Position numbers and translations under genes: made by a program. Below, piece after piece: positions 24,704 to 27,015 of a stretch of DNA of 44,476 bases. The notes below the pieces were generated by a model. It did no database searches. It saw only the letters and a program-made list of their open reading frames with translations, and had not been told where the DNA came from. Numbering within the stretch: the stretch's first letter is position 1; every line of letters starts with the position of its first letter. The stretch is from Elizabethkingia sp. YR214 (lineage in GTDB: Bacteria > Bacteroidota > Bacteroidia > Flavobacteriales > Weeksellaceae), in NCBI RefSeq assembly GCF_003058195.1, contig NZ_QBUH01000014.1, forward strand, positions 1 to 44,476, given 5' to 3'.

Positions 24704-25738
24704 CTATCTTAGTATAATGTCAAAATTTTCAGACAATGTAGTTCTGATATGTTCCTGTTTTTCATTAATTTCATCATTTAGTAAAGTTCTTTCATTAGAC
24801 CTGTACATAATGCGATAAGCTAAAGATGTTTTGTCTTCTTTGCAAAACTTATCCAGTAGATCAATGCTTTCAACAAGATCATTACCCTCTTCCCGTATAA
24901 TTTCACAGAAATTGTTGAACTCATTCCAGTTGCCTTCTTTATTTTCAGTATATCCATTAACCCAGAATGATATGTCTTTATAAATCGGTGGATATTTTGA
25001 ATATTGCTGAAATTCAATAAGACCGTTTTCGAATTGCGAAATAAAACGCAAGTCCTCTGTCCATAAATATCGTATATCGGGAATATTACAGTAGGAGAGT
25101 AATAAGCGGTCCAGGCCTAATCCAAAAGCCCAGCCGGTACCTTCTATATTGCAGTTTTTCAGGATCTGAGTGTGAATTACGCCTGCTCCCAAAACCTCCA
25201 TCCATTCATTGTTTTGCCATACTTCGATTTGTAATGATGGTTCGGTAAAAGGGAAATAATCGTCTAAAAACCTGTATGCTTTTCCGGGATATAGATATTG
25301 AATCAATCCTTCCAGTGTTTTCTTTAAATCATCCAAAGCATCGGCTCCGGCTGGCAAGATTTTTACACCCTCCATCTGATGGAAAACCGGATAATGGGTT
25401 TTGTCGATTGTGTCTTTTCGGTATACATCTCCTGAAGCAATGAATCTTGTATGACCAGCTTTAAGCAGCATATTTTGGTGTGCAGAAGTTTGTGTCCTTA
25501 GGACATGATCGCTATCTGTATAATAAGTATCATTTGCAGATCGGGCAGGGTGATCTAATGGAATCAGTAAATCATCGAAGTTGTCCCTAACACTTACAAT
25601 TTCATTTAAATCATCAAATACTGAGAAACCATTGAAATATAATTGAATCTTTTCTTTTAGTTGACAAATTGGATGGAGCTTATTGTTATGCAGTTTTTTA
25701 CTGCGCTTTTCATTTATTAGATTTGATATATTATTCAT
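24704..25738 (-). CDS. Single-chain (mitochondrial-type) phenylalanyl-tRNA synthetase
   Basis: 344 aa. A class II synthetase core is complete. Motif 1 region: LIPLDHPARSANDTYY (58-73). TSAHQ is at 84-88. Motif 2: GDVYRKDTIDKTHYPVFHQ (103-121; R107, H120, E123). The Phe-pocket FPFTEPS is at 162-168, followed by EVLGAGV (181-187). Motif 3: GWAFGLGLDRLLL (202-214; R211). Residues 249-344 form an FDX-ACB anticodon-binding domain (YPPIYKDISFW, DLVESIDLLDKF, YRIMYRSNERTL). In bacteria that domain normally sits on PheT, and PheS is a separate subunit. The one-chain order core+FDX-ACB is that of mitochondrial PheRS (FARS2), which this resembles along its length. It should charge tRNA-Phe as a monomer. 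A Phe-codon leader precedes it and a MarR-GNAT gene is divergent, which suggests a spare or inhibitor-resistant enzyme. Confidence 0.9.
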   Translation of the reverse strand: MNNISNLINEKRSKKLHNNKLHPICQLKEKIQLYFNGFSVFDDLNEIVSVRDNFDDLLIPLDHPARSANDTYYTDSDHVLRTQTSAHQNMLLKAGHTRFIASGDVYRKDTIDKTHYPVFHQMEGVKILPAGADALDDLKKTLEGLIQYLYPGKAYRFLDDYFPFTEPSLQIEVWQNNEWMEVLGAGVIHTQILKNCNIEGTGWAFGLGLDRLLLSYCNIPDIRYLWTEDLRFISQFENGLIEFQQYSKYPPIYKDISFWVNGYTENKEGNWNEFNNFCEIIREEGNDLVESIDLLDKFCKEDKTSLAYRIMYRSNERTLLNDEINEKQEHIRTTLSENFDIILR

Positions 25739-25754
25739 AATTAAATAATTACTT

Positions 25755-25778
25755 TCTGCGACATTTATATGTCGTAGA
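25755..25778 (-). promoter_or_regulatory. Leader hairpin close to the PheRS-like start codon
   Basis: TCTGCGACAT (25755-25764) and ATGTCGTAGA (25769-25778) are 10-base arms with one mismatch and a 4-base loop. In the minus-strand mRNA the hairpin ends 16 bases before the ATG, close enough to affect ribosome access. Confidence 0.5.
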
Positions 25779-25817
25779 TTTTTGATTTAAAATAATGTGA
25801 GAATTTAATATGGTATA

Positions 25818-25896
25818 TCTGTACGCAACAGACGTAGTTAATTATCTTGGCCTGTGGAGGCCAAAAAAGAAGAATGAAAATAATATGTTACGTCTG
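25818..25896 (-). promoter_or_regulatory. Alternative-pairing leader of the PheRS-like gene
   Basis: Three stems are possible in the minus-strand RNA. The inner stem is TTGGCCT/AGGCCAA (25847-25853 with 25858-25864). The outer stem is CAGACGTA/TACGTCTG (25829-25836 with 25889-25896). A third stem, TCTGT/ACAGA (25818-25822 with 25828-25832), shares bases with the outer stem, so those two exclude each other. The outer stem's 5' RNA arm is inside the Phe-rich leader frame, so ribosome position could select the structure. This is the logic of attenuation; no clear terminator T run is seen. Confidence 0.5.
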
Positions 25897-25904
25897 GTAT
25901 TCAC
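25842..25904 (-). CDS. Phe-rich leader peptide (attenuator-type) of the PheRS-like gene
   Basis: 20 codons from GTG (25902-25904) to TAA (25842-25844), reading MNTRRNIL-FSFFFFG-LHRPR. Five of six consecutive codons (25863-25880) are Phe (TTT, TCA, TTC, TTC, TTT, TTT). An in-frame TAG lies two codons upstream, so GTG is the first usable start. The -7 element at 25914-25921 puts transcription only a few bases ahead of it. Phe-run leader peptides upstream of Phe-tRNA synthetase genes are known from enterobacterial pheST. Here the run sits just before a hairpin and 104 bases upstream of the synthetase ATG. Function as a sensor of charged tRNA-Phe is inferred. The T-rich background makes chance occurrence possible. 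Confidence 0.55.
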   Translation of the reverse strand: MNTRRNILFSFFFFGLHRPR

Positions 25905-25913
25905 TATCTATAG

Positions 25914-25921
25914 CAAATCTA
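25914..25921 (-). promoter_or_regulatory. -7 element for leader and PheRS-like gene
   Basis: The minus strand reads TAGATTTG, a full match to TAnnTTTG. It places the 5' end of the mRNA near 25908 and gives a leader of about 170 bases that contains the Phe-rich frame and the hairpins. The -33 region is not distinctive. Confidence 0.5.
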
Positions 25922-26008
25922 CAAAATATTATTAGAATAATGACTATTAGATTAAAGGCCTATGGTTTAAATTTTAAGATTGGCATCTTTTAAATAAAAG
26001 AAAAGAGT

Positions 26009-26058
26009 AAATATAAATAAATATAGTTGACTTTGTCAACTATATTTATTTATATTTG
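26009..26058 (+). promoter_or_regulatory. Long perfect palindrome over the MarR-GNAT promoter
   Basis: Arms of 23 bases (26009-26031 and 26035-26057) are perfectly complementary around TTT, centred on TAGTTGAC-TTT-GTCAACTA. The right arm overlaps a full -7 element, TATATTTG (26051-26058), and TTGAC at 26027-26031 can serve as -33. TTGAC/GTCAA palindromes are typical MarR-family operators, so autorepression by the gene at 26086 is likely. As RNA it would only be a hairpin upstream of the start site. Confidence 0.7.
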
Positions 26059-26085
26059 TACCAAACTATTTGGAACATTTTAATC

Positions 26086-27015
26086 ATGGAAAAAACGATA
26101 AATCAAATCAGAAGCTTTAACCGGTTCTATACTTCTCATATCGGACTATTAAATCAAAATTTCTTAGAAAGTCCATACTCCCTTACCGAAGTCCGTGTTT
26201 TATATGAGATAGGAGAGCATAAATCAGTTACAGCACAGTATTTATGCGAAATTCTTTATTTAGATAAAGGCTATATGAGCAGAATTCTTAATTTCTTTTT
26301 AAAGAATGGTACTATTTCAAAAGTAAAGTCGGAGAGTGATGGAAGAGTCTATAATATTGTACTTACTAATACCGGGGAGGAATTACTAAATGAACTGAAT
26401 AACAGATCTGCAGGTCAGATCCATAGTTTTATGCAAAGACTAGGATCAGAAGAGAAAGATATGCTGGTTAATTCAATGAAAACAATTCAGAATTTATTAT
26501 CCACAAATTATGACAATCGTATTCTCGCGAATGAAGTTTCCTTTAGAGAAGGTTTAAGGTCCGGTGATATTGGATATCTAATTTATTTACATGGAATACT
26601 ATATTCTAAAGAATCCGGATATTCATTAGATTTTGAAGGCTATGTGGCTAAAACATTTGCAGATTTTCTCAGTAACTATTCTCCTGAACATGATAGGATA
26701 TGGCTTGCCGAATACAATCAGCAAATTATAGGCTGTATTGCTATAGTACAGCATAGTGAAAAAGAAGGTCAGTTGCGGTGGTTTTTAACACATCCTGTGT
26801 TTCGGGGAACAGGAATTGGTAAGCGATTGCTTAAAACAGCAATAGATTATTGTAGAGAGAAAGACTATGATAATGTTTTTCTACTCACAACAAGTGTACA
26901 AGAGCGTGCAATAGGTATGTATAAAAAAGCTGGCTTTGTACAAACTGAGTCAGTTGAATCGGATCAATGGGGAAAAACATTATATGAAGAACGATTTGAT
27001 CTGAAATTAAAATAA
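26086..27015 (+). CDS. MarR-type regulator fused to GNAT acetyltransferase
   Basis: 309 aa from the ATG at 26086. A TTG 30 bases earlier is in frame but lies inside the -7 element, so it is not used. Residues about 1-140 are a MarR winged helix: SLTEVRVLYEIGE, AQYLCEILYLDKGYMSRILNFFLKNG, SDGRVYNIVLTNTGEELL. Residues about 155-309 are a GNAT fold with the acetyl-CoA loop FRGTGIGKRLL and the C-terminal MYKKAGF segment. Such fusions are widespread, and their acetyl-acceptor is usually unknown. It is divergent from the PheRS-like gene. GNATs and duplicated synthetases both occur as self-protection against synthetase-targeting nucleotides, so a shared resistance role is plausible but unproven. Confidence 0.85.
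   Translation: MEKTINQIRSFNRFYTSHIGLLNQNFLESPYSLTEVRVLYEIGEHKSVTAQYLCEILYLDKGYMSRILNFFLKNGTISKVKSESDGRVYNIVLTNTGEELLNELNNRSAGQIHSFMQRLGSEEKDMLVNSMKTIQNLLSTNYDNRILANEVSFREGLRSGDIGYLIYLHGILYSKESGYSLDFEGYVAKTFADFLSNYSPEHDRIWLAEYNQQIIGCIAIVQHSEKEGQLRWFLTHPVFRGTGIGKRLLKTAIDYCREKDYDNVFLLTTSVQERAIGMYKKAGFVQTESVESDQWGKTLYEERFDLKLK

Follow-up and report, generated by a model that had tools for sequence, protein, structure and literature searches.

In Elizabethkingia sp. YR214, a gene for a protein related to phenylalanyl-tRNA synthetase (PheRS) is preceded by a short reading frame rich in phenylalanine codons, which raises the question of whether this leader senses the supply of charged tRNA-Phe and, if so, through what kind of switch. 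The window analysed here is the whole stretch of 44,476 nucleotides from this genome (contig NZ_QBUH01000014.1), and coordinates refer to it unless another contig or locus is named.

The leader peptide of Escherichia coli pheST (pheM) is short and contains a Phe run. The pheST operon is a classical attenuator according to passages of PMC1262725, and T-box leaders, as the abstract of PMC2494555 also has it, control aminoacyl-tRNA synthetase genes by tRNA charging. The earlier note on this DNA called attenuators little described in the phylum Bacteroidota, which is fair without holding absolutely: passages of PMC9723704 offer strong clues for leader-peptide attenuation of amino-acid operons in Flavobacterium psychrophilum and structured 5′ regions at its aminoacyl-tRNA synthetases, and the genome of the window itself has a His-run leader with a terminator, described below. 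F. psychrophilum belongs to the same phylum, but SrmL and a Phe leader are absent from the relevant passages of that paper. Leader-like small frames are mentioned for Bacteroides thetaiotaomicron in part of PMC7366714. Within the open-licence literature, with most subscription journals outside, no paper on SrmL or its leader was among the matches listed, and the matches listed for 'SrmL' (20 of 27) were unrelated uses only; there was no paper on the 'mystery ligase' and none joining leader peptide, phenylalanine codons and attenuation.

SrmL resembles single-chain PheRS

The gene downstream of the leader (24704–25738, minus strand) encodes a single-chain protein of 344 amino acids with a class II PheRS core (PF01409) and a C-terminal FDX-ACB domain (PF03147). 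The protein scored 313 bits against NCBIfam NF051887 ('PheS-related mystery ligase SrmL'; cut-off 300) and 296.1 bits against TIGR00469 (mitochondrial PheRS; cut-off 258.35). Among solved structures, human mitochondrial PheRS is its closest relative (E 5e-77). Five models were predicted, and the best of them, with a pLDDT of 86.2 against 63.9 to 78.1 for the rest, was similar to this structure with a TM of 0.90 (3cmq). Profile scores, domains and predicted fold thus bear out the initial description of the gene as PheRS-like, and tie it, by homology only, to the amino acid of the codon run. Housekeeping pheS is also present in the genome of the window, and a full-looking ordinary pheS match was found besides SrmL in 15 of 16 genomes, the match in G494 being cut at the contig end.

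The His of the HTS motif of PheRS contacts the amino group of Phe. This motif is HTS in human mitochondrial PheRS and QTS in 14 of 16 aligned SrmL proteins, the proteins of L023 and L024 having HTS (L021, which has a premature stop, and L030 were left out of the alignment). The relatives encoded on viral contigs (n = 28) include 8 with HTS, 19 with HMT and one with QMT at the same position. Other core PheRS motifs are kept in SrmL, and the His-to-Gln change possibly reflects a shift in substrate or inhibitor binding.

A conserved Phe-run leader precedes SrmL

The minus strand at 25904–25842 forms a frame of 20 codons that starts with GTG and is translated as VNTRRNILFSFFFFGLHRPR up to the stop codon. 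Phe is encoded by codons 9 and 11–14, and the run TTT TCA TTC TTC TTT TTT (codons 9–14) spans 25880–25863. When the 172-nt upstream stretch was shuffled 5000 times with its dinucleotides preserved, no frame of 10–40 codons with five Phe codons in six arose, and among the 829 frames of this length in the window (436 plus, 393 minus) only VNTRRNILFSFFFFGLHRPR has such a run. The shuffles and the window-wide count place the frame that the earlier note had reported beyond chance; its position at 25842–25904 was right, and its strand is corrected to minus. The locus therefore has what is expected of an attenuator in this respect: a short frame, upstream of the gene, in which the regulatory codon occurs as a run. 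The element TAGATTTG (25921–25914, minus strand), 9 bases before the GTG, fits the TAnnTTTG form of the Bacteroidota −7 promoter box, as had been proposed, and the box-to-start-site spacing taken from passages of PMC9723704 predicts a transcription start at ~25909. An exact TAnnTTTG lies no more than 70 nt from the leader start in 8 of 16 leader loci and a near variant in 4; a scan of 70 nt around the leader start found no such box in the remaining 4.

The alignment of orthologous upstream regions, which had been suggested as a check, covered 18 SrmL loci: 16 from a scan of genome contigs, L030 from a genus search and the window itself. A Phe-rich frame was present at the corresponding place in 16 of the 18, an outcome in favour of the proposal, and in 14 of the 18 loci four or more of six codons are Phe. 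Leaders from Elizabethkingia, Chryseobacterium, Sphingobacterium and Pedobacter read MNxRINILFSFFFFGPPGPR up to the stop codon or are versions with FFFFFF, whereas one Myroides leader reads IFYFYFDPKGSL before its stop codon, that of a Bacteroidetes MAG SFSFFFLGSPRA and that of a Saprospiraceae MAG HFFFAPSG. The leader of the window starts with GTG and that of Elizabethkingia miricola (L010) with ATG, and a start codon in frame with the Phe run was found in 15 of 16 leaders. Two of the runs are not clearly beyond chance when taken alone: that of L012 (Myroides; three Phe and two Tyr) was matched by 48 of 1000 shuffles, and that of L024 (the Saprospiraceae MAG; three Phe) by 185 of 1000.

Orthologous leaders without a Phe-rich frame and indels that disrupt the frame had been named as evidence against the proposal, and both were found to a limited extent. 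Myroides odoratus (L022) and Myroides sp. 1354 (L025) have SrmL with no leader at the corresponding place. A frame with three Phe in six lies much nearer the gene in L025 (6 of 1000 shuffles); it was left uncounted because it is at another place and overlaps a promoter-like box by eye. In Pedobacter caeni (L018), a 1-base deletion affects the leader start codon, so that the frame needs another start and was detected only from an upstream TTG, and hairpin A, described below, has one mismatch.

The 13 frames that could be aligned as codons (L018, L023 and L024 were left out) all end in TAA, differ by indels of 3 and 9 bases and show conservative codon changes. The synonymous fraction was 0.30 in frame, compared with 0.07 and 0.17 in the other two frames. 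Column shuffles reached the observed mean BLOSUM score of changed codons in 19 of 2000 cases and the observed synonymous fraction in 95 of 2000; for the Phe-run part alone the tests were weak (67 and 100 of 2000, respectively). A coding signal is therefore there but modest, given these figures in so short a frame. Frame and codon run were thus kept under changing DNA in the 13 loci, with L018, L022 and L025 as exceptions. Phe codons 9, 11 and 12, which lie outside hairpin A, mostly remain Phe through T/C changes. Many frames close on GPPGPR or a close form, and the residues after the Phe run differ among loci, as in GLHRPR, GPQGPR, DPKGSL and APSGQW.

Between the leader stop and SrmL there are 92 to 161 nt, and the stop is in the SrmL frame at some loci only; read-through or fusion of the two was rejected. 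This gap is far longer than the distances of ~11–14 bp that passages of PMC4833913 give for leader genes and reinitiation in Bacteroidetes.

Comparable Phe runs were not found ahead of the other genes compared. The upstream regions of 15 housekeeping pheS genes from the 16 genomes (G494 pheS, cut at the contig end, was left out) held no gene-strand frame with four Phe in six, and one such frame was present on the other strand at L049. No frame with three Phe in six occurred in up to 350 nt upstream of the 28 viral-contig SrmL relatives, of which L075 and L084 have almost no upstream DNA. Likewise, there was no Phe run in the 400 nt upstream of a relative on an Azotobacter plasmid (L007, 29% identity) and no Phe leader in the 500 nt upstream of the prephenate dehydratase gene in the genome of the window.

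Three hairpins with compensatory changes

The leader RNA contains three conserved hairpins on the minus strand. Hairpin A (25866–25845; UUUUGGCCU CCAC AGGCCAAGA) lies inside the frame, directly before the stop codon, and the last Phe codons pair with the bases preceding UAA to form its foot. The frame had been described as ending before the hairpins; instead, hairpin A lies within the end of the frame and draws on bases from its last two Phe codons. Hairpin B (25833–25817; core TCTGTTGCGTACAGA) begins 8 nt past the stop codon and has a nearly invariant loop, and hairpin C (25778–25755) ends 16 nt before the SrmL start codon. In an alignment of 14 leaders (L023 and L024 were left out), 97.6%, 98.0% and 90.5% of cells were paired in A, B and C, respectively, and the pairs changed on both sides numbered 2 of 9, 1 of 7 (C-G to U-A in 3 loci) and 4 of 6. 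L023 and L024 likewise show, in their lowest-energy folds, a hairpin directly after the Phe run.

Over the three hairpins together, pairing extended to 95.8% of cells, and changes on both sides were seen at 7 of 22 pairs and in 13 cells; none of 500 shuffles reached any of these values. Of the five structure measures, further pair types did less well, with 23 of 500 shuffles reaching the observed value. Slid versions of the structure were at most 45.5% paired, a comparison biased towards the actual structure, because this was derived from the alignment on which it was scored. These results show that hairpins A, B and C have undergone compensatory changes.

The core of hairpin B had 15 matches in 16 genomes, 12 of which hold matches, and 13 of the 15 lie before an SrmL gene. 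The other 2 sit within a long open coding frame, presumably that of peptidase T, and hairpin B was not retained as a candidate for a general module. An Rfam scan gave no match at gathering score, and a permissive scan gave 4 matches far under the gathering scores of their families. No T-box was among them, so that the leader differs from T-box leaders both in having no covariance-model match at either score and in carrying its codons in a peptide frame.

No classical attenuator switch was found in the leader

A scan of the leader strand for intrinsic terminators, with loops of up to 16 nt and a stricter T-count, found none in 15 of 16 SrmL leaders; the exception, L012, has a weak terminator-like site. 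The same scan recovered the terminator of the his operon in the genome of the window, which served as a positive control. A narrower scan with loops of up to 8 nt missed the his terminator and gave weak matches in L011, L012, L013, L024 and L030. On the minus strand of the window, no terminator-like site lies between the leader and SrmL. The region 25600–26100 contains three terminator-like sites: two of them are on the plus strand, and the single minus-strand site (26054–26012) is upstream of the leader promoter.

A perfect palindrome with 23-bp arms (AAATATAAATAAATATAGTTGAC-TTT-GTCAACTATATTTATTTATATTT) is located at 26009–26057, directly before a MarR-GNAT fusion gene (26056–27015, plus strand) that is missing at the corresponding place in E. 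miricola (L010). Judged by its form, the palindrome looks like an autoregulatory operator or a terminator.

Among helices that would exclude A, B or C, none was present in more than 8 of 14 loci, so that a conserved, mutually exclusive antiterminator helix was not found. A pairing of leader codons with hairpin B, at its 5′ arm or its loop, occurs in 5 of 14 loci, and one between hairpin B and the 3′ arm of hairpin C in 7 of 14; neither is claimed here, because neither is general. The lowest-energy fold of the window prefers the leader–B pairing over hairpin B. Between the leader start and the linker after B, a locus's own pairs were slightly stronger than swapped ones (−6.94 versus −5.73 kcal/mol), and the other 11 segment pairs were near their swapped pairings or weaker.

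Occlusion of the SrmL start was considered in folds in which a ribosome masked either the Phe run or the stop codon. Shifts in the openness of the SrmL start did not exceed 0.08 in the 14 core loci. Openness rose from 0.24 (stop masked) to 0.41 (Phe run masked) in L023 and from 0.31 to 0.40 (Phe run masked) in L024, shifts in too few loci to build on. Translational occlusion is therefore unsupported in the core loci. The anatomy indicates that the position of a ribosome can be read by A and B.

The his leader of the same genome (G000 contig 5, L096, ~228974–229130) provides a comparison. Like the SrmL leader, it has a TAGATTTG box followed by a short frame in which one amino acid is repeated in a run (MQLNAVHHHHHHSCKAS up to its stop codon) and then the operon. 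Unlike the SrmL leader of the window, it contains a strong intrinsic terminator before hisG (AAAACCCGTC...GACGGGTTTTTATTTTT). This arrangement suggests that a classical attenuator is at work at the his operon. The resemblance of the SrmL leader to enterobacterial pheST, proposed in the earlier note, thus extends to a Phe-run leader before a PheRS-like gene and stops at the switch, because no intrinsic terminator was found in 15 of 16 leaders and no alternative helix in more than 8 of 14 loci.

Spread of SrmL and its leader

SrmL is rare in the samples searched. It was found in 2 of 301 genomes from the family of L015, 4 of 173 from the genus of L011, 1 of 248 from the family of L024, 1 of 61 from the genus of L012 and 1 of 395 in a sample of the phylum. 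Among 99 relatives of the window genome, itself counted, 2 have SrmL; two further matches cover the catalytic core only, at 39–41% identity, and were taken for ordinary PheS. The closest named locus is that of E. miricola (L010), with an SrmL protein 93% identical to that of the window.

The SrmL of Chryseobacterium jejuense CC143 (L014) is 92–93% identical to those of Pedobacter (L017, L018) and its leader 96–97%, whereas the corresponding values against C. jejuense DSM 19299 (L013) are 70.4% and 66.5% despite pheS regions that are 97% identical. Because L014 resembles Pedobacter rather than L013 in both gene and leader, SrmL and its leader have moved together between genera, in one horizontal transfer. 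The leader is more conserved than the gene between the window and E. miricola (95.9 versus 88.7%), L011 and L013 (90.1 versus 86.9%) and L014 and L017 (96.6 versus 92.3%), but less so between L016 and L017 (88.2 versus 91.8%) and between L020 and L021 (91.0 versus 96.0%).

No partner gene stands beside SrmL in all 17 loci compared (L030 was left out), and AraC-like and GNAT-like neighbours, named outside the window from a reading of their sequences, recur at some. Sphingobacterium tabacisoli has two SrmL genes (L016 and L020; 75 and 71% identical to that of the window), each with a Phe leader. In Sphingobacterium yanglingense (L021, 6001–7035), the C-terminal part of SrmL contains a premature stop and the leader is intact. 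The 28 relatives of SrmL or single-chain PheRS on viral contigs (L065–L092) show 39–56% identity, most covering the whole query, and 12 of the 28 contigs are over 200 kb long; these relatives bear on the origin of single-chain PheRS.

Discussion

In our view, the leader is likely a cis-acting element in the SrmL mRNA, one in which translation of the Phe-run peptide serves to sense how much charged tRNA-Phe is available. Transcription would start from the TAnnTTTG box, and a ribosome would translate the 20-codon frame, a step that the conservation of the frame supports. When charged tRNA-Phe is short, the ribosome would halt in the Phe run, by analogy with known leader peptides, and its footprint would reach hairpin A, which has the last Phe codons in its foot. 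When Phe-tRNA is ample, the ribosome would proceed to the UAA, where its footprint, from the geometry of the sequence, would reach the 5′ arm of hairpin B. Given the reach of the footprint at the run and at the UAA, the position of the ribosome would decide whether A and B exist during leader synthesis. The state of A and B would then set the expression of SrmL, presumably raising it when Phe-tRNA is short.

The output of a leader that probably senses charged tRNA-Phe is probably non-classical. As a guess, we favour a step that depends on Rho or on pausing and takes place in the G-poor linker from B to C; mRNA processing is our second choice. The leader appears to work like a leader-peptide attenuator, but the failed terminator test keeps it out of the classical class. 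Compared with pheST (pheM) and pheA of E. coli, it shares a short Phe-run peptide before a PheRS gene in the case of pheST; it differs from both in having three separate conserved hairpins and no detected terminator/antiterminator pair. Moreover, SrmL is a second, single-chain PheRS-like gene rather than the housekeeping one, and the phylum and promoter type differ from those of pheST.

Other explanations would account for parts of these observations. It is improbable that the leader is a classical transcription attenuator of the pheST kind whose terminator was missed owing to an odd loop or an imperfect U-tract. A Phe-run peptide ahead of a PheRS-like gene, and a classical-type his attenuator in the same genome, are what such a reading expects, but the scan that found the his terminator detected none in 15 of 16 leaders, the minus strand of the window from leader to gene has no terminator-like site, and no alternative helix is widely conserved. 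Drug-induced leader peptides are known (e.g. PMC8274638), and the GPPGPR or close form that closes many frames would suit an arrest peptide, in which a nascent FSFFFFGPPGPR-like chain stalls on a drug or metabolite, not on tRNA-Phe charging, and thereby induces SrmL. We give this little credence: the residues past the Phe run vary while hairpin A remains paired, the Phe run is the constant part, and the controlled gene is PheRS-like.

The strong conservation of A, B and C, the nearly invariant loop of B and the pairing of the U tract with the foot of A could instead indicate a structured RNA, such as a protein-binding site or riboswitch, in which the U-rich tract before A makes Phe codons by accident. 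Against this stand Phe codons 9, 11 and 12, which lie outside A and mostly stay Phe via T/C changes, together with the indels of 3 and 9 bases and the in-frame start codon in 15 of 16 leaders, and the chance of such an accident appears slim. Sensing of charged tRNA-Phe by the leader thus remains our preferred reading.

A fuller picture is offered tentatively, as one that could be right but that we would not bet on: the locus may hold a switch of a new type, with no Rfam match, in which the position of a ribosome on a Phe run is read by three conserved hairpins and no intrinsic terminator is used. Such a switch would guard a spare PheRS of the single-chain kind, which moves from one Bacteroidota genus to another along with its own sensor and provides backup charging when housekeeping PheRS fails or is inhibited. 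If this is true, Bacteroidota would possess a leader peptide that senses an amino acid on behalf of a gene resembling those for aminoacyl-tRNA synthetases, with a switch that operates without an intrinsic terminator. The 'mystery ligase' SrmL would gain a role as a backup phenylalanyl-tRNA synthetase that is switched on by shortage of tRNA-Phe, and a gene that moves together with its sensor would constitute a portable module for stress or inhibitor tolerance.
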